IMG/VR virus record: IMGVR_UViG_3300019487_000052
Coordinates: 1 to 41,976 of that record
From: a virus
Length of the DNA: 41,976 bases
Strand: one strand, 5' to 3'
Shown: piece after piece, positions 3,641-34,320 of the stretch
How the letters are laid out: every line of letters starts with the position of its first letter
Position numbering within the stretch: position 1 is the stretch's first letter
Notes under the pieces: generated by a model
Seen by the model: only the letters and a program-made list of their open reading frames with translations
Told to the model about the DNA's origin: nothing
The model's database searches: none
Program-made: the position numbers and the translations under genes

Positions 3641-5917
3641 CTATGCCGTGGGTAGGTTCACCCGGTTACGTAGCGTAACCCGAGTCTGGACCCACAGGGT
3701 CAACTTGTCGTTCTCCGTACCGTCGGTTAGGACACCCACGATGCGGGAGATGGGGGTCCAGTCTCTCTGGACGATGCTCTGGAGCGCCCCCTGAGTCGAG
3801 AACTTCATCTCGCTGTACCTGATCTCGAAGGTACGAGTAGGGAGCGTCTGTTGGACCCCACTTGCGTTCACGACCGCTCCCTCGGAGTCATTCTCGATTG
3901 CTGAAAGTGCTGCGAGAAAGAACCGGCCCACGTCGTCGATCTTGAAAGGATCAGAAATCCCCCTGACGACTGATGCTTCGGGTACCAAGAGGTCAATGAG
4001 GAGAGCCCCGTCAGACCCGAACGCACATGGTCCAGTCGAGCCAAGGCCCTCGATTGCGACGAACCCGATATGGTCAGTAGCCATACCCAAGAGAGAGACG
4101 TTGGGATTCACGTTCAGCCGAAGCGTGACGGATAGGATGTCCGTTGGATCGAAACTTCCGCTCATCGCGTCAGGGGAAGCATAGAGAACCTGGACGAAAT
4201 TGTAACCGGTTACAAAATCGGCGACCGGAACCCTCCCCGTGATCGAGCCACTGGTCGAAACGACGACGATTTCAAGTCCCGGAGCGATGACATCGGGGAG
4301 AACTGCTGAAGGGATCAGGAACTCCCCGAAGACCCCGATTGGAGTAACGCCCGTACCCTGGTCATCGGTCCCATCGACCGGACTGGAGAAAGTGGAGATC
4401 GTCCCCACTAGGGTCCCCGGAGCATTGTCCTTGTCGAAGGTGTAGGCCGTCTGGTCATCCACGTCGCGGACTAGACCGAGTGCGTCCGTAGCCGTGAGAT
4501 TGATGGTCTCCACATCGTAGGGGCTCACGGGAACCCCTGTCTCATCGAGTGGGAGACGCAATCCCTCGCCATCGGGACCTGGGAGACCCGTGGAGCTGTC
4601 GTAGAAACTCTCGTCGTTGTGCCACTGGGGAAGGACACGGTGGCCATTGAACCGCAGATGACCAGGATCCTCCTGAGTGTAGATGTGACCACCCTGCCAG
4701 GCAGCACCAATGAGAAAACCGTAGAGGCCGGCTGTCATGTAGGTCTCGAAGTTGGCGATCGACTTCTCGTACCTGTAATCCTGGCGACCGGGGTTCAAGA
4801 ACGGTGGTGGGATAGCCACTGGGTCAATGGATCCAGAGTCTCGGAAGTGCTCCATCGGGTCAGTCCCCGCGTAGGTCAGTACCGCATTGCTCAAACAGCA
4901 GACCGCTCCGAAGCCTTCCAGATGATCCACGTTGAAGCTCACGGCCCCACCGTCGGCTACATCAAGTGCCAGGTCGATCTGTCGGACATCGGAAAAGTCC
5001 ACAGTGCCCGAAGACAGCGTGGGGAGAGCCAGTGCGATATTGAGAGACGTGAACCCCACATCCAAGTCTGCCGCCGTGATCCGGTAAGATGCCGAACCAC
5101 CGGGTGAAGAGAGAGTCACAAGGAGTGGATCCAGACCCACCAGTCCACTTGGATCAACCATGTTGAGAACCAAGATGGCCCTGGTGGCTGCTCCGAAATC
5201 TATGGCATTGGCTGCCGATGTCGATCTCCGGAAGTTGGCGGTCTGAGTAAACCCACTCGCGTTTGAGGCCATCAAATGAGGCGATCTCGTGCCTTGGAAC
5301 ACGCGATCAAGCGCGAAGTCAGTCGTGATGGCGTGGGACACTGATGGGTTGGTTTGGATCCACTCCCCTTCAGTGTCGAATCCTTGAAGGAACTGGCCAG
5401 AGAACCCCATTGATCCAGTCATCAGGCAGTTCGTTACCCGACCTCCTGTGACGATCGATAGCCCCCGGCGAGCCCGGAGAGATGTGAGGTTAGAGAGCGT
5501 CACGGCCTCAGTGGCGCCCATCACGTTGAAAGCAACCTCATCCTCCTGGTCGAATGTGAATCCCTCCTGATAGTCAAAGCAGTTCTTCACCAGGACTGTG
5601 GAACGTCCGTCCACGCGCACGCATGACCGGCAGTTCTTGAACCGGATCCCAGTGATCGTCTGGTTGTCCCCCATGTCGAAGGCCAGAGGGAGCGTTCCCT
5701 GTCCATCCCACAGGACGAACCCAGAGCCGTAGATGCAGATCCCAGAGAAGCCGGTAAGGTCCACTAGTCCATCGGGGATGTAAGTCCCAGCCCCCAGGAT
5801 CCATGTCATGTCATCTTGGAGTAGCTCGATGGCCCTAGTGATACTAACGGCCGAGCGCGAGGAGCCCCCGACCCCATCGGATCGACCATCAGGTGCCAGG
5901 AAGACTCTGGTACCCAT
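3641..5917 (-). CDS. Large beta-helix tail spike or adhesin
   Basis: 758 aa from the ATG at 5917. That start overlaps the gpJ stop as TGATG, so I prefer it to the upstream in-frame ATG at 5974. The first ~200 residues look like a pectin-lyase-type beta-helix (GTRVFLAPDGRSDGVGG start, then GIRFKNCRSCVRVDG and LVKNCF rungs). Two similar beta-sandwich segments follow, each with an S/T-rich strand and a 'DVGFTSLNIALALP / VTGYNFVQVLYASP' motif (about 250-330 and 480-600), possibly carbohydrate-binding. It lacks membrane or signal segments. One of the palindromic dyads (4202-4213) lies inside this gene, encoding Val-Thr-Gly-Tyr. The function in host recognition is inferred. Confidence 0.75.
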   Translation of the reverse strand: MGTRVFLAPDGRSDGVGGSSRSAVSITRAIELLQDDMTWILGAGTYIPDGLVDLTGFSGICIYGSGFVLWDGQGTLPLAFDMGDNQTITGIRFKNCRSCVRVDGRSTVLVKNCFDYQEGFTFDQEDEVAFNVMGATEAVTLSNLTSLRARRGLSIVTGGRVTNCLMTGSMGFSGQFLQGFDTEGEWIQTNPSVSHAITTDFALDRVFQGTRSPHLMASNASGFTQTANFRRSTSAANAIDFGAATRAILVLNMVDPSGLVGLDPLLVTLSSPGGSASYRITAADLDVGFTSLNIALALPTLSSGTVDFSDVRQIDLALDVADGGAVSFNVDHLEGFGAVCCLSNAVLTYAGTDPMEHFRDSGSIDPVAIPPPFLNPGRQDYRYEKSIANFETYMTAGLYGFLIGAAWQGGHIYTQEDPGHLRFNGHRVLPQWHNDESFYDSSTGLPGPDGEGLRLPLDETGVPVSPYDVETINLTATDALGLVRDVDDQTAYTFDKDNAPGTLVGTISTFSSPVDGTDDQGTGVTPIGVFGEFLIPSAVLPDVIAPGLEIVVVSTSGSITGRVPVADFVTGYNFVQVLYASPDAMSGSFDPTDILSVTLRLNVNPNVSLLGMATDHIGFVAIEGLGSTGPCAFGSDGALLIDLLVPEASVVRGISDPFKIDDVGRFFLAALSAIENDSEGAVVNASGVQQTLPTRTFEIRYSEMKFSTQGALQSIVQRDWTPISRIVGVLTDGTENDKLTLWVQTRVTLRNRVNLPTA
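4200..4215. promoter_or_regulatory. Dyad site 1 (core GTAACCGGTTAC), inside the spike gene
   Basis: A perfect 16-bp palindrome TTGTAACCGGTTACAA. The 12-bp core is identical to six other sites in the window. Unlike most copies it is well inside a coding region. Confidence 0.85.
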
Positions 5918-7821
5918 CAGACCACTGTGCTCGTCGCCACGTCGATCACTCGAATCCCCCCAAGAACTGGCCAAGTCCGGGCCGCCACGGGTACGTCATC
6001 GGCCGGGATGAAGGCGTCCTCGTTGATGCTTTCGATCCCATCGACTCCGTGGATCCCCGATGCGGCGACGAGTAGATCGCTCACTCGAACAGTGGTAGCG
6101 AACTCGATCTCGTCGTTTCTTGTCCCCTCGGCCTTGCCCGCTAGATCCCCGGTGTTGATCGGGGAGAAGAACGCTTGGAGGCGGGTGCGGATACCATTGC
6201 GGACCGCCTGCTTGAGGAGTGTCGTGGTCGCTTCGCTACTGAAACGCACTGGAACATGGACATTTACGATCTCGACCAGTGGACCGAAGAGGGCAATCTG
6301 ATGGCCGTTTGGAACTGGCTTGGTGACTGTCAGAAGAGTAGTGATCGCCGCGAAAGTCCCAGCTGCGGGATCAGCACCGAGGACAACTGCCGACTGCTGG
6401 GCCGTGTCGATCTTCAAGACGACCGAGGCATCGGGGGATCCCGCTCCGATCACGATCCGGGCCGACAAGCTGGCTTGACCGGTCGTGAGTAGGTAGCGGA
6501 CATTTGCGGGGTCGAACTCGCAAGTGAAGTTAGAGTATGCCTCGTCGTTGTCCAGAGGGTACTCGGGGACCATCGCACGAACCCGCGCCTGGATCTCTGC
6601 TGCGATGTCCTCGCCGGAAGACCGGTTCCCAAGATCGACCGTCTGGGGGGTCTCCCCGTTGATGGAGATAGTGAACTCGTCGTCCACTGCATCCGTCGTC
6701 AACGTGGCCGCCGCGTTGCCACCAGTGATCTGAGCATTCGTTGGACTGTCGGAGATGACGACGATCTCACTCGTGTTCTCATCCACGGACGGATCTTCGT
6801 TGGACGTGAGGACCAAGGCCCTATCCACGCCGGGGACGCTTTCTACATTGGTCACGAAGTCCGAATGGGAAACTGTCCGACGTGCCACTTGGAGACTCTG
6901 GGGAGCCTGGACCTTGATCTCTTCGATGGAGAGTTCATCAGCCCCGCCCGAGGAGAGGACTGAGTTGGCGTAGGCGACGGAGACGGCATCGTTGTTCGTA
7001 TTGCGGAGAGCCGGACCCCTAGTAACGGTCTTCTCATTGCCTCGGGCACCACCGCCGCGACGGCCAGTGACCGTGATCTGCCCCAAAGGAGCGATCCCCT
7101 GGGTGCCGTTTCCAAACCGTAGGATGAGGCGGCCCAAGTTGTTCAGGGAGATCCGGACGTGGGCTGAGGTCGGCTCACTGTCCAAGAAGTTCTCGACGAC
7201 TGTGAAAGGCGTGGCCTCGACCTCGATGAAGAGAACCTGGACGGAGTCTCCACTTCCGTCCACACCCGAGAGCAAGATGTCAGTCGTGGCCGTCGTGAAC
7301 TCCTGGTAGATGCTCCCATCCCCCACGAACGTCTCGGAGAAGTTGACGGAGTTCTCCACGACGAAGGATACGGATGTACCCGCTATGCCGGCTGGGATCG
7401 TTGCATCGTCCAAGGACTGAAACGTCGCGGCTGATGTTCCATCGCCACTTGGGAAAGATGATCCAGCGGGGATCGGGGTTGGGAAGCTCGATGCGAGAGT
7501 GAGCGTTGCGGTCAGCGTGGTAGTCGCTGCGACCTTTCCAGGGGGCTCGTAGCCGATCAGCTTGGTATGCTGGAGAGCCATCTCCCTCTGAGTGACCGTG
7601 GGGAAGACCAGTTCCCGAACATTGGCGTGGAGGTAGAAGGAGATGAAGTCAATGAGGATGGCTACCCAGTTGATGATGAGAGTGATGTAGCTCGGTTGTG
7701 AGAAGTCCGTGTTGACAGTCGGGAACCGATTCTGGGCATCAGCGATCAAGGCTGGCCGAGCAGTGGCGTAGTCCTTGTCCGTGTACCGGAAGTTGGGGGC
7801 ACTGATGATCGACTCGGGCAC
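5917..7821 (-). CDS. Baseplate J-like protein (Mu gp47 / P2 gpJ family)
   Basis: 634 aa, GTG start at 7821 with AGAGGG five bases upstream. The N-terminus is typical of the Baseplate_J family: residues 40-95 carry a helical 'ILIDFISFYLHANVRELVFP' segment and a LIGYEPP motif, and a central region has RFGNGTQG and RRGGGARGN (about 233-262). SHSDFVTNVESVPGVDRALV (318-337) is the J-family domain linking to the C-terminal wedge. Residues 380-482 appear to be an inserted beta-rich module also seen in the tail sheath and in the 22546-23892 protein. The protein forms the baseplate wedge together with gp25 next door. Confidence 0.9.
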   Translation of the reverse strand: MPESIISAPNFRYTDKDYATARPALIADAQNRFPTVNTDFSQPSYITLIINWVAILIDFISFYLHANVRELVFPTVTQREMALQHTKLIGYEPPGKVAATTTLTATLTLASSFPTPIPAGSSFPSGDGTSAATFQSLDDATIPAGIAGTSVSFVVENSVNFSETFVGDGSIYQEFTTATTDILLSGVDGSGDSVQVLFIEVEATPFTVVENFLDSEPTSAHVRISLNNLGRLILRFGNGTQGIAPLGQITVTGRRGGGARGNEKTVTRGPALRNTNNDAVSVAYANSVLSSGGADELSIEEIKVQAPQSLQVARRTVSHSDFVTNVESVPGVDRALVLTSNEDPSVDENTSEIVVISDSPTNAQITGGNAAATLTTDAVDDEFTISINGETPQTVDLGNRSSGEDIAAEIQARVRAMVPEYPLDNDEAYSNFTCEFDPANVRYLLTTGQASLSARIVIGAGSPDASVVLKIDTAQQSAVVLGADPAAGTFAAITTLLTVTKPVPNGHQIALFGPLVEIVNVHVPVRFSSEATTTLLKQAVRNGIRTRLQAFFSPINTGDLAGKAEGTRNDEIEFATTVRVSDLLVAASGIHGVDGIESINEDAFIPADDVPVAARTWPVLGGIRVIDVATSTVV

Positions 7822-14107: not shown

Positions 14108-14368
14108 CTACTCTCGGGGAATACCCTGGCCCTTCGGCTTCATCGCATCTGCGAACTTCTCCCGTAGCTCGCTGTGCTCCTCGTAGAGCTTGAGTAGATC
14201 GCCCCAGTCCATTTCCAGCAGCTCGCTCTTGGTCAGACGGACGCTCGGGAGATTGGGGATGTCAGTGAGGAGGTATCGTAGGATCTGATCGACTGGTCCC
14301 GGTTCTTCTCCCGCTCCAGGCGAGCCTTCTTCAGACCCTCCCGTTCGCGTGAGAAGAAACTCTGGAGT
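14108..14368 (-). CDS. -1 frame extension of the tail assembly chaperone (frameshift product segment)
   Basis: Just before the tape measure, the -1 frame relative to the chaperone gene is open from 14377 to a TAG at 14108-14110. Read from the slip site it gives 86 codons beginning TPEFLLTRTGG and passing through DQILRYLLTDIPNLP, LTKSELLEMDWGDLLKLYEE and EKFADAMKPKGQGIPRE. This helical, charged sequence is more protein-like than the in-frame tail. It contains an ATG at 14212 that could alone start a 34-aa peptide, with only a weak ribosome site. The arrangement mirrors lambda G-GT and P2 E-E' upstream of the tape measure. Expression by slippage is inferred. Confidence 0.6.
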   Translation of the reverse strand, partial: TPEFLLTRTGGSEEGSPGAGEEPGPVDQILRYLLTDIPNLPSVRLTKSELLEMDWGDLLKLYEEHSELREKFADAMKPKGQGIPRE

Positions 14369-15108
14369 AAAGGGAGGTCAGCCTCGAACTCCTTCCCGCA
14401 TGCCTGGCACCGGTGCTTCACGGTCCCCACGTGGCCGAAGCTCTCGGCGTTGTATCTCTCCTGGAAGACGTTCAAGAAATCGGCCGGGACGTGGAAGAGG
14501 TGTTCCAGGATGGCCTGGCTCTTGGTCGGCCCCTCCAGAACATCGGTGAGTCCCTTGATCTCGCTGATGGTGATCTTGATGGACAAGATCATGTCGAAGT
14601 CCACGGACGGATGCTGCTCCTTGAGCTTGTGGGCCTCCTCCGTGCTCTTGATCTGATCCTCGACCGTGGGGATGTGGAAGACGTAGGTGAGGGCCTTGCC
14701 CCGGTACTCGTAGGTGAAGCAATGCCCCGACGTGGGCGCATCCTTCACCAGACACCGCAGGGCCATCTTGGAGAGATCGACGCAGTAGGCTTCCTTGCTG
14801 TCGCACTCGGGACATGGGAGCTTGTAATCAAGCTCGTCCCCGTAGGTGGCCCGCACCAGGGCCACCATCACGGCCTCTCCATCGGGGATCAGCAGGGTCT
14901 TGTACTCGTCGGGCTGGAGCTGCGTGCACTGAGGGACGATGTGCTTCGACAGCAGCTCGATGGAGCGTGGACCCCTGTTCTTTCGGCTCGTGAGCTGGCC
15001 CAACTGCCCCGCCGTGAGGGGGGAGGCCGTGAGTTCTCGTCCGTTGCTCGGGAGAATGAAGTGAACATTCTGGGCCATGTTCGGTGGCTCTGTTTTCGGT
15101 TGGACCAT
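14233..15108 (-). CDS. Tail assembly chaperone / T4-type baseplate hub assembly protein
   Basis: 291 aa from ATG 15108, or 281 aa from ATG 15078 (MAQNVHFILP), which I find more natural because the first ATG sits inside a dyad. The segment VMVALVRATYGDELDYKLPC then PECDSKEAYCVDL resembles the T4 baseplate chaperone family ('l.lRi.tyG.e..v...CP.C......v.v.L'). Two CxxC pairs (C99/C102 and C234/C237) suggest a zinc site. It lies between tail tube and tape measure, the position of G/GT or E/E' chaperones. After Pro246-Leu247 a slippery heptamer allows a -1 shift. The in-frame tail after it (QSFFSREREG...) is Arg/Ser-rich and looks less natural. Confidence 0.75.
   Translation of the reverse strand: MVQPKTEPPNMAQNVHFILPSNGRELTASPLTAGQLGQLTSRKNRGPRSIELLSKHIVPQCTQLQPDEYKTLLIPDGEAVMVALVRATYGDELDYKLPCPECDSKEAYCVDLSKMALRCLVKDAPTSGHCFTYEYRGKALTYVFHIPTVEDQIKSTEEAHKLKEQHPSVDFDMILSIKITISEIKGLTDVLEGPTKSQAILEHLFHVPADFLNVFQERYNAESFGHVGTVKHRCQACGKEFEADLPLLQSFFSREREGLKKARLEREKNRDQSIRSYDTSSLTSPISRASV
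14368..14374 (-). promoter_or_regulatory. Slippery heptamer C CCT TTA for -1 frameshifting
   Basis: On the minus strand the heptamer is C_CCT_TTA, matching X_XXY_YYZ in the chaperone's own reading frame (codons CCT TTA, Pro246-Leu247). The -1 frame has a TGA at 14378-14380, 4 nt before the heptamer, and then stays open for 86 codons. I did not identify a clear downstream pseudoknot by eye. Confidence 0.6.
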
Positions 15109-15133
15109 CCTCGTAACCGGTTACGAGGATGGT
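15104..15133. promoter_or_regulatory. Dyad site 3, extended to a perfect 30-bp palindrome
   Basis: Core GTAACCGGTTAC at 15113-15124 flanked by ACCATCCTC on the left and GAGGATGGT on the right, giving uninterrupted 30-bp symmetry. It lies between the tail tube stop (15142) and the tail assembly chaperone; the left arm covers its first ATG. There is no T-run, so an intrinsic terminator is unlikely. Confidence 0.9.
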
Positions 15134-15141
15134 GGTGAGTG

Positions 15142-15783
15142 TCAGCCGCTCAAGTTGAAAGCGGGGATGGTCGTGCCGGGGATGTTGAGACCGGAGAAAT
15201 CCCGACCGAACTGCGCTGAGGCGATCCCCGGCAACCCGACTTGGAGGTTCAGCTTGACCCCGCTGATGCTGGTCCTCTCGTAGGAGCTGTAGGCCAGGGT
15301 GATCGACTCGATGGCCCGTTCGTTGGCCGTGTTGTCGAAACCCTCGACTGACCGAACGACGATGGGGAACGAGTCGTAGAGCGTCCAGACGGTCTGGCTG
15401 TTCTTGGCCCGGTCGAGAGAGACGATCCGCGTGGGCACCTTGTAGCCCAGAGGATCGGCGAACCCAGCACCAAGACCTCCACCGTTGGAGAGAGGGGCCC
15501 GGACGTTCCCGTTGAGGACCCTCTCGAACCACGCCTCCAGCTCCACGATGTTGCGCGTGGCCCCGCGCCGTAGAGTGATGGTGGTGAACTTGCCGAGACC
15601 GGGGCCCAGATCGGGGACGAGTGCCCCTCCCTGGTAGTGCTCGACGAGCTGCACGTCGCACCCCAGCTCGCCCATGTCCCGGAAACCCGTGTCCTTGAGG
15701 AACACGTTCTCCACCTTGAACAGGAACTTGTCGAGCAGTTGGCGTGGGGTGGCGATGAGAGCTTGGACGGGATTGGATGCCAT
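15142..15783 (-). CDS. Tail tube protein (gp19-like)
   Basis: 213 aa, ATG with GGAGG eight bases upstream, one of the strongest ribosome sites in the window. The pattern KFLFKVENVFLKDTGFRDMG and LGPGLGKFTTITLRRGATRN follows the T4 gp19 / injection-system tube family (FrVei.G...gFsevsGl ... p.....kytnitLkRG.t....l..W). Later, GYKVPTRIVSLDRAKNSQTVWT replaces the usual 'i.l.d..g..v..w.l..a.P'. It stacks as hexamers inside the sheath. Its place directly after the sheath gene supports the call. Confidence 0.9.
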   Translation of the reverse strand: MASNPVQALIATPRQLLDKFLFKVENVFLKDTGFRDMGELGCDVQLVEHYQGGALVPDLGPGLGKFTTITLRRGATRNIVELEAWFERVLNGNVRAPLSNGGGLGAGFADPLGYKVPTRIVSLDRAKNSQTVWTLYDSFPIVVRSVEGFDNTANERAIESITLAYSSYERTSISGVKLNLQVGLPGIASAQFGRDFSGLNIPGTTIPAFNLSG

Positions 15784-15800: not shown

Positions 15801-17954
15801 TCACTCGGTCAGATCGCCGGTAACCGGCGGTCGCATCTCGAAGAGATCGAAGGTGATGAACTCCAGGGCCTTGTTGAGGGCCAGACCGACACGGCCAGCG
15901 AGGATGCCCCGCTCGAAATCCGGGACGAACTTGACGTAGAACGCCTCCTCGTCCGTCGCTCCGGTGAGGCCCCCTCGGGCTCGCAGGTTCCGCAGGTAGG
16001 CCGTGCAGGATGCCGTCATCTCCCGGACCAGCTCCAGGTTCAGCACGCTGCTGATGAGCTTGGACCGGCAGAATCCGGTGAAGTCCCGCCGCACCTTGAG
16101 GAACGTGGCCCGCTTCTGGATCTCTCCGGTGCCCACGGTCGTCCCGCTGACCACTCCGGGGCGGGAGAGGGTCTGGACTCCGAAGGTGAAGATCCCAGTA
16201 CCGTTGCGGAAGGAGGTCTCGGGGTTGATCCGCTTCTCGTAGAGGCGGTCGCGGTTGGTTTCGATGAGGGTGGCCTCGTCCTCCAGCCCCACGATGCCCT
16301 TGTAGGGCCTCTGGGGACCTCCGGGAGGCAGCCAGACGCCTTCGTTGGTCGTACCTGCCATCCGGGCCCTCAGTCCCAGGTTGGAGGCCGAGCGGGAGAC
16401 CACACGAGTCAGGGCCCGGTTGCGTGGGTCCTTCATCTTGTGGTTCGGCCATCCGATGTCTCCGTAGTCCGAGGAGGAGCGTAGGGTGTCCGTGACGTAG
16501 TCGATCACCCCATCCACGTCCAGACCCACGGGCGGATCGAGGCAGACCTGGAACCTCTGGATTTCCTCGGCCAGGAAGAGCACGGCCTGCTGCACATCAG
16601 CGTCCCGCCCCAGGGTCTCGGGAAGAGCGAACGAGTTGATCGTCTCCACATCCCGGAACGCCTGCATGCCGGTCCTGGCAGTGGCATCGCCGATCAGGTC
16701 GTTCTCGTCGAGCCCAGTGAGCCCGTCGTCACCACCGGTGAGGGCCTGATCCGTCACGTCCGCCGGGGCGTTGAGGGGGACGGGGCTCACGCTGGAGAGA
16801 TCGGTCACGCGGATGTACACGCTACCGGAGAACTCGTCGTTCACGATCGTCTCGACGTACTGGCTCGTGTTGCGCGTGTTCATCGAGAGCCCGGCGTGGC
16901 GTTCCAGCTCCACCCCACCGGATCGGACCGTGAGGATGAACTCGATGGAGCGGACGGTTGCCCCTGCCTGGACGGTCTCCGTGAGGACGACGGCCTCGGT
17001 CAAGATGACCAGACCGTTCTCGATGCGCTCGACCTCGACGTAGAAGGGGTTCGGATCCGTGAGCGGCGCCGTGATGTCCGTGATCTCCAGGATCGACCCG
17101 GGAACCACGCCACCGATGCTCTCCAAGTCCAGGCTCGTGTCTCCGTTGGTCAGGAGAGCGGCCGTGACGGTGTTGACGAGGTTCTGGGCCAGGATCGAGG
17201 TTGCCAGCTCGTTGCCGTGGACACCCTCGGAGAGGGCTTCGACCAGGAGCGTGGAGACGAAGGGCCCGGCCTCGGTACCACCGTTGGCCACACCCAGATC
17301 CAAGCTCGCAGCCACGTCATCAACCAGTCCGTTGGTGACTACCACGGTCTTTCCAGCCGCGATCGTCCCATTGCGGAGAAGGAGCCGACCGTCGCTGGTG
17401 ACGACACAGGTGAAATTGTCGAAGTCCGGCTGGTTGGCCGGGGTGACGGCGATGAGTGCACGCACCTCGCTCTGGATGTCCGCTGCGATCGCTGCCAGGC
17501 CAGCCAGAGGGGCGTTGAGAGCAATGGCCTGGACACCATCCCCCGAGAGGTTGATGCGGAAGTTGACGGCCGGTGCCGTCACGGTCGTCGCTGGAGTAGT
17601 GCCAGAGAGGGAGTAGCCAGGTCCACCATCCAGGAGCGTGGTGGATGCCTTGATGGCCGTGAGCGTGGAAGGGTCGGACGGATCGGTGTAGTGACCGAGC
17701 CTCTGGACCCACACCTCACCGGAACCTTCCGCGTTGGTCCAGTACACGTCCATCCAGAACGCGGCCTCGGCAGCGTCCAAGAAGCTCCCGAAGATACGGT
17801 TGAACTCCTCGGGGCTCCGGCATGGGGTGGGGACGAACGGGCCCTTCTCGGTGATCGCGAGGAGAGCCGTGGACGCCTCGTTGTCGGAGTCCGGGGCCAC
17901 CGGCCGGTTGGGGGACTCGCTGAAGGAAAGAGCTGGAGATCGGAAAGCGGTCAT
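15801..17954 (-). CDS. Contractile tail sheath protein
   Basis: 717 aa, ATG with GAGAGGT upstream. The N-terminus 'STALLAITEKGPFVPTPCRSPEEFNRIFG' matches the sheath pattern 'v.gfvG.t.rGP.n.P..i.s..eF...fG'. The C-terminal third (VNTLRSSSDYGDIGWPNHK is absent, but YVTDTLRSSSDYGDIGWPNH, DYVTDT, FTGFCRSKLIS and the final VKFVPDFERGILAGRVGLAL) corresponds to the conserved sheath core, whose 'R....I...l......fE.N...lw..v...v..fL..l...GaL' segment ends the protein. Residues about 130-228 are a beta-rich insertion shared with gpJ and the 22546-23892 protein. Contraction drives tube penetration. Confidence 0.9.
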   Translation of the reverse strand: MTAFRSPALSFSESPNRPVAPDSDNEASTALLAITEKGPFVPTPCRSPEEFNRIFGSFLDAAEAAFWMDVYWTNAEGSGEVWVQRLGHYTDPSDPSTLTAIKASTTLLDGGPGYSLSGTTPATTVTAPAVNFRINLSGDGVQAIALNAPLAGLAAIAADIQSEVRALIAVTPANQPDFDNFTCVVTSDGRLLLRNGTIAAGKTVVVTNGLVDDVAASLDLGVANGGTEAGPFVSTLLVEALSEGVHGNELATSILAQNLVNTVTAALLTNGDTSLDLESIGGVVPGSILEITDITAPLTDPNPFYVEVERIENGLVILTEAVVLTETVQAGATVRSIEFILTVRSGGVELERHAGLSMNTRNTSQYVETIVNDEFSGSVYIRVTDLSSVSPVPLNAPADVTDQALTGGDDGLTGLDENDLIGDATARTGMQAFRDVETINSFALPETLGRDADVQQAVLFLAEEIQRFQVCLDPPVGLDVDGVIDYVTDTLRSSSDYGDIGWPNHKMKDPRNRALTRVVSRSASNLGLRARMAGTTNEGVWLPPGGPQRPYKGIVGLEDEATLIETNRDRLYEKRINPETSFRNGTGIFTFGVQTLSRPGVVSGTTVGTGEIQKRATFLKVRRDFTGFCRSKLISSVLNLELVREMTASCTAYLRNLRARGGLTGATDEEAFYVKFVPDFERGILAGRVGLALNKALEFITFDLFEMRPPVTGDLTE

Positions 17955-22537: not shown

Positions 22538-22558
22538 GTCCGAGATCAGACCTCGGAC
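22538..22558. other. Short hairpin at the stop of the 448-aa virion protein
   Basis: Seven-bp perfect stem GTCCGAG / CTCGGAC with a 7-nt loop. It overlaps the TGA stop of the 22546-23892 gene and has no clear T-run. Confidence 0.45.
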
Positions 22559-23892
22559 AGGGTTCCGCTCAGGCGGAAGTAGACGAGCCAGCGGTTCGCG
22601 CCGGCGTTGGAGAAGTCGGTCACGGAGGACCGGTTCACCAGGTGATCGCGCCGGACCCGCACGAAGGAGAGCGGGTCCACGATCAAGTCCAGAAGGGCTC
22701 CGGTGGACTCGACGTAGGGCTGGATGGCGACGATCTCCGGGGTATCGACATTGAGGGCCACCTCGGTCTCGGTACCGACCGCCTCGGTCGCGGGGAAGTT
22801 CAGGAGGCTCGCAGCGGCCGCATCTCCGAAGACGAGGACCTTGGCGTCGATCCCCAGACGATCGGTGGTAATGCGGACCGCTCCGCCGTTCACTGACGCC
22901 ACCGCCGCGGTGAGCGTGCGGTTGATGACCACCACGACCTCGGCGGCGGTCGCCAGAGCCGGGTCCACGAAGTCCGCGGCCTCGAAGGAGATGGTCTGGG
23001 GGCCGACGTTGTCCGTCCCCGAAGAGCTGACGATGCCGTCGGCGGCCCTCAGCTTCAGGTTGTCGGCAGCGCTGTTGGCCGCCCCGTCGGTGTAGACCAG
23101 GCTCATGTCCGCACCGCGCTTGCCGGTCTTCGATTCGTAGTAGTCGTCGGCCGTCTGCACGGTGGTACCCGCGGAGATGAGCGCCCCCGGGGTGAACTTC
23201 TGGGTACGGATCTTCTTGACGCGGCCCCCTCCGAAGATTTCGATGATCCGCACCTCGATCACGGTGGCCGCCATGATCCGCAGCGAACTGCCTCTCCGGA
23301 GACCCTGGACCGTGTCCACTTCGATCTCGTTGACCTCGACACCGCTGGCGAGCGCCTTGGTGAGGGTGGTCGAGAACGAGGGGGGCGAGTAGGTCATCGT
23401 GAAGAGGCTGTAGGCCCTCTGATTCCTCGCCGATGCCGCGGTCAGGGCCCTGACCGCTGCCTGGAAAGCTGCGGCCACGTTGGCCCCACCGGTGACGGTA
23501 CCCAGGTCGATCTCCTGGGTCGCTTCACCAGCGATGCTCACCTTGATGGTGTCGGATGCCGCGTTGACGGTCGCCAGAGCCGGGAAGAGGCCGGAGCGAT
23601 GTGTGGCGACCGAGCCTGGGGCATTGTTCCTGTGGGGGTAGTCGTTCAGCAGGATCTTGAGGTCGGGGAACTCCGCCGCGTCGAAGTCGTAGGTCCCGAC
23701 TGCGGAAGTGCGAACTGCCGCAGCCGAGACATCGGGGGCCGGGACATCGACCGGAGCACCCAGGACTCGAAGAGCCTCGGGCAGCCGCGACCGCAGGAGG
23801 TTGAACCGAGAGGAGAGATCGTTCGGGAGCGGACCGGGCGGCAGCTCGCTCGAATCGAGCTGCGGCTCGGCGACCGGGAAGGAGCGGGTCAT
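22546..23892 (-). CDS. Virion protein encoded after the capsid gene (decoration or head fibre candidate)
   Basis: 448 aa, ATG with GGAG five bases upstream. Residues 113-175 (DTIKVSIAGEATQEIDLG ... AAFQAAVRALTAAS ... YSLFTMTY) resemble the insertion modules of the tail sheath and gpJ. A second region at about 295-370 (ATAAEVVVVINRTLTAAVAS ... VRITTDRLGIDAKVLVFG ... LLNFP) has the layout of the flagellin hook IN motif. The C-terminal segment VRVRRDHLVNRSSVTDF is unfamiliar. Position directly after the capsid gene and a probable attenuating hairpin suggests a decoration, head fibre or other abundant virion protein. No function is proven. Confidence 0.7.
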   Translation of the reverse strand: MTRSFPVAEPQLDSSELPPGPLPNDLSSRFNLLRSRLPEALRVLGAPVDVPAPDVSAAAVRTSAVGTYDFDAAEFPDLKILLNDYPHRNNAPGSVATHRSGLFPALATVNAASDTIKVSIAGEATQEIDLGTVTGGANVAAAFQAAVRALTAASARNQRAYSLFTMTYSPPSFSTTLTKALASGVEVNEIEVDTVQGLRRGSSLRIMAATVIEVRIIEIFGGGRVKKIRTQKFTPGALISAGTTVQTADDYYESKTGKRGADMSLVYTDGAANSAADNLKLRAADGIVSSSGTDNVGPQTISFEAADFVDPALATAAEVVVVINRTLTAAVASVNGGAVRITTDRLGIDAKVLVFGDAAAASLLNFPATEAVGTETEVALNVDTPEIVAIQPYVESTGALLDLIVDPLSFVRVRRDHLVNRSSVTDFSNAGANRWLVYFRLSGTLSEV

Positions 23893-33612: not shown

Positions 33613-34320
33613 TCAGTCCCGCTCGAAGATCATGATGTGCTCGTGCTCGAACAGCGTGAAATTGTTCACGATGGCGCGGTACCGCCAGAGGCCCTTGTGG
33701 GCTCCAAAGCCCTTTCCCTTGGTCGTCCCGATGTTCTTCACGATGTCACTCTTTAGCCGGTAGCCGATCGCTCGGATCCTCCGAGCACATTCGGATGGAA
33801 GAAGAACCAGCTCCCCAGAAGTATAGATGTCTGAGATGACGAGTGCCAAGAAGCGGCCGCTTGGAAGAAACCGAGAGAGATTGCGGACCACGTCGGCAAA
33901 CAAGTCGAGGAAGTCATCCACCTTGTACCGCGATAGATCCCCTGGCTCATGGCTGTAAGAGACGATATTCGCGTAGGGTGGGTGCAGGATGATGAGATCG
34001 ACTGTCCCATCAAGAGAGAGGGTCCTCGCGTCGGCTCGGACGATCTTGGATCGAACTGGTCGGATGTCCGAGGCAAGGATCGTCCGCCCTAAAGTGGCGC
34101 CCACGTCGATCGTCGTCCCACTCCCAGCAAAAGGATCCAGTACCACGTCTCCAGGACGCGTGTACCTGCGCATCAACTGGTAGGGGATCTCGGGGATGAA
34201 GTTCCCGTGGTAGGACGCTAAGCCAGCTCCCTTGGATCTTGTCTGGTCGATCCAGAGAGAGCCGAAGCGGATATCATCGGGAGGAGTCTTGGGGTCGAAG
34301 TCCCCTAGAAAGCTGGGCAC
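33613..34320 (-). CDS. DNA methyltransferase (N4/N6 type)
   Basis: 235 aa. Motif I is VLDPFAGSGTT (60-70), preceded by the motif-X-like HGNFIPEIPYQLMRRYTRPG. Motif IV reads LHPPY (112-116), a variant of the usual DPPY/SPPY tetrapeptide. The downstream part (NLSRFLPSGRFLALVISDIY) fits motif V-VI. No separate target domain is visible, so the specificity cannot be given. The GTG start at 34320 has a weak ribosome site. Embedded in the late operon, so it may modify virion DNA; the HPPY variant may still be active (seen in some families). Confidence 0.8.
   Translation of the reverse strand: MPSFLGDFDPKTPPDDIRFGSLWIDQTRSKGAGLASYHGNFIPEIPYQLMRRYTRPGDVVLDPFAGSGTTIDVGATLGRTILASDIRPVRSKIVRADARTLSLDGTVDLIILHPPYANIVSYSHEPGDLSRYKVDDFLDLFADVVRNLSRFLPSGRFLALVISDIYTSGELVLLPSECARRIRAIGYRLKSDIVKNIGTTKGKGFGAHKGLWRYRAIVNNFTLFEHEHIMIFERD

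Follow-up and report, generated by a model that had tools for sequence, protein, structure and literature searches.

A predicted −1 programmed ribosomal frameshift in a T4-family tail assembly chaperone gene of a contractile-tailed phage

The slippery heptamer of phage lambda G/GT is G_GGA_AAG, and the two overlapping frames lie right upstream of the tape measure gene, the second of them at −1. The short lambda chaperone binds the tape measure protein, and the extra domain of the −1 frameshifted form recruits the tail tube protein (PMC5009743). In T4, the two forms come from two separate genes on opposite strands. Their products, gp26 and gp51, are the proposed tail assembly chaperones (TACs) of T4-like phages; gp26 stops where the PF12322 domain closes with FF, and gp51 has a C-terminal extension. 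Going by the title of a 2022 paper, a mechanism other than frameshifting has reportedly been proposed for T4-like phages. In the contractile-tailed phages of the Vandenendeviridae/Andersonviridae, such as phage Adele, TAC-N is followed by a downstream −1 ORF, once annotated as a hypothetical gene, and the frameshift motif is an invariant GTTTTT (PMC12846349).

Here we describe a related arrangement in a 41,976-nt stretch of viral DNA (IMG/VR record IMGVR_UViG_3300019487_000052), hereafter called the window. The minus strand of the window carries its structural genes (terminase, portal, protease, capsid, sheath, tube, chaperone, tape measure, and baseplate), and the chaperone gene has the PF06841 tail tube gene on one side and the PF10145 tape measure gene on the other. 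In a profile search, the chaperone matched PF12322 over residues 14-252 with an E-value of 2.3e-12 and a score of 47.5 bits, the curated cut-off being 24.5; it also matched the baseplate hub family phrog_150 (9e-11). We checked that T4 gp26 and gp51 match the same PF12322 profile. By these profile matches, the window chaperone is a member of the T4 gp26/gp51 family and not of the lambda G or P2 E family. Thus, the likeness to lambda G/GT and P2 E/E' drawn in a preliminary description of this DNA holds for mechanism and position but not for the chaperone family. Other differences from lambda are the heptamer and the contractile tail of the window phage, and the long form of the window, with its ratio to the short form, is a prediction. 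The arrangement also departs from that of T4, because the window has one gene and an overlapping −1 frame: a protein search found a single PF12322 copy in the record, which may be a fragment, and no pair of full-length separate PF12322 genes in the T4 style. We consider it probable, at roughly 0.83, that this one gene gives rise to two tail assembly chaperones by −1 programmed frameshifting, as predicted from the features collected in Table 1.

Table 1. Positions of the predicted recoding elements and neighboring tail genes in the window
Feature	Position	Strand	Remarks
Contractile tail sheath protein	15801..17954	-	phrog_23 tail sheath, 6.2e-23; 44-46% identity to relative G001
Tail tube protein, T4 gp19 type	15142..15783	-	PF06841, 3.7e-17
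Tail assembly chaperone, short form (TAC-N), 291 aa from first ATG	14233..15108	-	PF12322
Shine-Dalgarno-like AAGGAG, 14 nt upstream of heptamer	14389..14394	-	possible stimulator; function inferred
−1 frame ORF, 89 codons and TAG; the 86 codons after the heptamer are the predicted extension of the long form (TAC-NC)	14108..14377	-	
Slippery heptamer C_CCT_TTA	14374-14368	-	frame 0 CCT TTA to frame −1 CCC TTT
Predicted mRNA hairpin, starting 9 nt after heptamer	14303..14358	-	possible stimulator
Tail tape measure protein, 736 aa	11880..14090	-	PF10145, 4.5e-12; phrog_28, 8e-19

The heptamer spans Leu245 (CTC), Pro246 (CCT), and Leu247 (TTA) of the 291-aa ORF, with X at codon position 3, and no other in-frame X_XXY_YYZ occurs in the chaperone gene. 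After a TGA at 14380-14378, the −1 frame is open from 14377 to 14111 and is closed by a TAG at 14110-14108, which leaves 17 nt before the tape measure ATG (14090). The predicted fusion is 333 aa long (247 + 86). The preliminary description had placed the heptamer correctly, at these three codons of the chaperone frame, and its 86 open codons, its 17-nt gap, and its product of ~333 aa were all recovered; it had also seen the TGA that closes the −1 frame upstream, although the distance to the heptamer is 3 nt and not 4.

A heptamer with an open −1 frame is in itself weak evidence, because the chance of a heptamer within the ~46-codon overlap is about 10% (27 in-frame heptamers occur per 11,784 minus-strand gene codons, or ~1/436) and because long −1 frames are common here, with 18 of the 31 window genes followed by a −1 frame that extends at least 41 codons past the stop, often since the next gene uses that frame. 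In E. coli, frameshifting at C_CC.U_UU.A and at U_UU.U_UU.C exceeded 0.10% even with no stimulator present (PMC4066793); the window phage may have another host. Elsewhere in the window, the gene at 33613-34320 has an in-frame G_GGA_AAG (33718-33712), 106 nt ahead of its stop and followed by 59 open −1 codons; this heptamer is probably a chance occurrence. At the chaperone gene, what carries the case beyond chance is the switch of the codon signal between frames, the absence of a −1 start before 14212, and the relative described below.

We followed the codon signal with a model for which 20 other window genes served as the training set. Frame 0 had a posterior of ~1 as far as about 14300, and so did frame −1 between about 14270 and the −1 stop; over the stretch bounded by the two stops, −1 was ahead of frame 0 by 57.8 log units. 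For ~75 nt directly after the heptamer, frame 0 scored above −1, and this stretch is dual-coding. The −1 ORF contains no ATG, GTG, or TTG before the ATG at 14212; initiation at that ATG, which lacks a good ribosome-binding site, would leave only 34 residues.

Profile searches with capsid, sheath, and portal identified a single relative, IMGVR_UViG_3300037264_002561 (G001; L010/L092), whose tail module is syntenic with that of the window and whose capsid and chaperone are 46% and 27% identical, respectively, to those of the window. No other close relative was found with chaperone, sheath, capsid, and portal queries among viral and genome contigs, and the chaperone query alone had no match in the phage collection. 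A PF12322 search of the records of 20 capsid relatives was likewise without a match but is uninformative, as the control was silent too and the real copy in G001 was missed. The chaperone gene of G001 (L092:4172-5077) has a lone in-frame heptamer, T_TTT_TTC, at L092:4972. Its −1 ORF runs to 5328, the stop ending 3 nt before the tape measure GTG, and has no start before its last third, the first TTG being residue 93 of 130. With a model trained on three genes, the codon statistics of G001 passed from frame 0 to frame −1 directly after the heptamer, and the third frame was favored near 5283-5313.

The −1 tails of the two phages gave a 60-residue alignment with a score of 53, which was equaled by 2 and 3 per 5000 shuffles and by none of the 599 chunks taken from the six frames of the window. 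In contrast, the 0-frame tails had no similarity to each other (1264 of 2000 shuffles were as good). At the domain end, ADLPLLQSFF of the window aligns with AVLPIEEGFF of G001, so that the heptamer of G001 falls at FF and that of the window five codons upstream; the FF codons of the window, TTC TTC, are not canonically slippery, and G001 has the longer linker. Taken from the two sequences, what is conserved is the architecture, namely the order of the tail module, the PF12322 chaperone, the −1 overlap, and the similar −1 tails, and not the sequence or the codon of the heptamer. The preliminary description had called for a comparison of chaperones from relatives and had held that an extension encoded in one frame without a slippery site, or a heptamer that is not conserved, would speak for a sequencing or assembly error or a mutated gene. 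In this one distant relative, both frames are retained with similar −1 products, and a canonical heptamer of its own stands at the domain end. The exact motif and its codon are not kept, whereas the presence of a canonical heptamer in the overlap is, as judged from G001 only. Together with the codon frame switch and the downstream hairpin described below, the similar −1 tails with their own heptamer in G001 support the earlier suggestion of a programmed −1 frameshift.

Three other explanations of the overlap have to be weighed. The extension might be a small gene in its own right, initiated independently or by coupling. The downstream ORF of KVP40 and Bellamy is recorded in this way, under the name 'baseplate hub assembly catalyst', and T4 does have two full genes, 26 and 51. 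However, the −1 ORF has no start before 14212, and independent initiation therefore cannot explain all of the relative-like stretch: PGPVDQILRYLLTDIPNLPSVRLTKSEL would stay untranslated, as would the corresponding part of G001, where the first TTG comes so late. Furthermore, KVP40 and Bellamy themselves have an in-frame T_TTT_TTC at the overlap, and we regard a separate gene as very unlikely. One continuous gene could also have been split, whether by an error in sequencing or assembly or by a true inactivating indel. As expected of a continuous gene, the −1 reading after the heptamer, LPL-TPEFLL, does resemble the usual domain end (for example, GPEFF in GXN1). Against this stand the same −1 overlap in G001, an independent contig with a chaperone that is 27% identical, the frame 0 sequence, which remains coding-like past the heptamer and still reads through the FF domain end (the PF12322 match reaching residue 252), and the position of a heptamer near the break, which is the expectation for a programmed site. 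Because two independent contigs share the design, an error is unlikely, and we hold a broken gene of either origin to be the most improbable of the explanations considered here.

The remaining alternative keeps a real programmed −1 shift but moves it elsewhere within the overlap, such as to the vicinity of TTC TTC. Because frame 0 scores better for ~75 nt after C_CCT_TTA, a slip site further downstream would also fit; the codon statistics of the window change only after ~14300, and G001, KVP40, Bellamy, and the uncultured phage L102 all have their heptamer at the FF codons. On the other hand, the codons at this point in the window, AGT TTC TTC, forbid two-tRNA −1 re-pairing, the gene has no canonical heptamer besides C_CCT_TTA, and the codon signal is blurred by dual coding. 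We consider another slip site unlikely, if less far-fetched than a separate or a broken gene, and retain C_CCT_TTA as the predicted site.

With slippage at C_CCT_TTA, most ribosomes would stay in frame 0 and produce the short form TAC-N of 291 aa (281 aa if translation starts at Met11), and a minority would slip back by one base into the −1 frame and produce the long form TAC-NC of ~333 aa. If the two forms work like lambda G and GT, the N-terminal domain common to both would coat the tape measure protein, the extension would recruit the tail tube subunit, and the ratio of short to long form set by slippage would control tail assembly. The gene anatomy, the synteny, the switch of the codon signal, and the similar overlap with its own heptamer in G001 are seen in the sequences, and from them we infer the slippage of ribosomes; its frequency and the binding partners of both products are likewise inferred.

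Slippage would probably be aided by the hairpin downstream of the heptamer and perhaps by the upstream AAGGAG. The hairpin was predicted at −30.3 kcal/mol over 60 nt. Stretches of equal stability made up 0.7% of those in the genome, and 2 of 200 shuffles were as stable (z −2.73). In G001, the structure downstream of the heptamer was no better than shuffles (z −0.63), and AAGGAG was not conserved at the corresponding spacing.

An AlphaFold model of the window chaperone had a mean pLDDT of 62, and its best fold matches in the PDB were YqbN (3klu, Z 6.2) and the HK97 chaperone (2ob9, Z 5.6); with these modest Z-scores and a low-confidence model, the matches agree weakly with a chaperone role like that of the lambda protein. 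A sequence search of the PDB gave no significant match. The 0-frame tail was predicted with a pLDDT below 50 at residues 252-264 and 270-291. The preliminary description had taken this tail as not folded, which is broadly borne out by the low pLDDT and the lack of tail similarity, except that its first ~75 nt still look like coding sequence in frame 0. Modeled alone, the −1 extension formed four short helices with low confidence (pLDDT 63). A match of the −1 ORF to MLLE (E 0.0016) was set aside, as its 18.8 bits were below the 27-bit cut-off.

Other phages with a PF12322 chaperone offer a wider comparison. In KVP40, Bellamy, and L102, T_TTT_TTC stands at the FF end of the domain and is followed by a −1 extension. 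In the KVP40 and Bellamy records (L104:3277-3486 and L105:3163-3366), the end of gp26 carries the heptamer, and the gp51-like small gene at −1 is annotated separately. By contrast, the extension is at +1 in Streptomyces BRock-like phages, SP-15, and GXN1, where TTT followed by C stands at the FF end, and in LIS04, which has TTT TTT A. These +1 phages resemble the window in that the order sheath, tube, PF12322 chaperone, extension ORF, and tape measure is found in most of them, the tape measure of GXN1 being unannotated; they differ in the direction of the extension and in the TTT_C or similar sequence at the FF end.

In five phages of the BRock group (L002:10626; L008, L095, and L096:10623; L097:2326), the chaperone ends in CTG TTT C.. 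and a conserved +1 extension precedes the tape measure gene. In the records of this group, the extension is either missing from the annotation or entered as a small gene of its own, whose start varies inconsistently. Encoded +1 residues are shared upstream of the annotated starts in the Streptomyces group, and between pSt2308 and GiJojo the +1 frame has 4, 1, and 18 changes at codon positions 1, 2, and 3, respectively. Judged from these sequences, the BRock group looks like a case of +1 frameshifting at TTT_C. A +1 extension at the FF end was also seen in the Streptococcus phage vB_SagM-GXN1 (TTC TTT CGT; L098:3959-4973), in SP-15 (TTT TTT CAC; L100:1501-2437), and in LIS04 (TTT TTT AGT; L101:1501-2443). 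Several of the other family extensions share, by eye, a pattern S-L-x-x-(I/L)-x-x-(M/L), which we do not claim for the window. The window extension had no significant match in six frames to a profile of 11 family extensions of the T4 gp51 type (hhalign E 0.3) and no direct sequence match to the extension of the Streptomyces phage pSt2308.

These comparisons suggest that both shift directions occur at one place in one family. We tentatively propose, at slightly short of even odds, that the short-form end of PF12322 chaperones is a recurrent recoding site whose direction changed in evolution, with −1 in the window, G001, KVP40, Bellamy, and L102, +1 at TTT_C in BRock-like phages, Thornevirus, and GXN1, and two genes in T4. 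If so, the two-gene layout of T4 would be a derived escape from frameshifting, and frameshifting would also account for several of the 'separate small genes' annotated in T4-like records. For the window itself, the frameshift introduces no new principle. The prediction is well supported and concerns recoding of a known kind, here in a T4-family chaperone of an unusual lineage. A divergent lineage of contractile-tailed phages, for which one relative was found, would join those that use −1 frameshifting to set the stoichiometry of their tail chaperones, and it would do so with a chaperone from the family of T4, which is the classic exception. In the gene model, the predicted long form would be entered as a joined CDS, replacing a 142-nt 'intergenic' gap.

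The start of the chaperone gene is possibly Met11 (15078), 10 codons after the first ATG (15108), which would give a short form of 281 aa. The chaperone of the relative aligns from Met11, and neither of the two starts has a clear ribosome-binding site. The first ATG falls within a perfect 15-bp palindrome in the gap between tube and chaperone genes (15104-15133; z −4.72). At the equivalent spot (L092:4106-4138), G001 has a 14-bp hairpin (z −4.78), and SP-15 has an annotated terminator. The palindrome possibly lowers expression of the chaperone relative to the tube.

A repeated domain seems to be common to the sheath (15801-17954), a 448-aa protein encoded after the capsid gene (22546-23892), and a baseplate protein (5917-7821). 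The 448-aa protein and the baseplate protein each match two places in G001, one of them within the sheath gene, and phrog_15814 matches both the sheath and the 448-aa protein of the window. The sheath of G001 apparently holds an extra copy of this domain.
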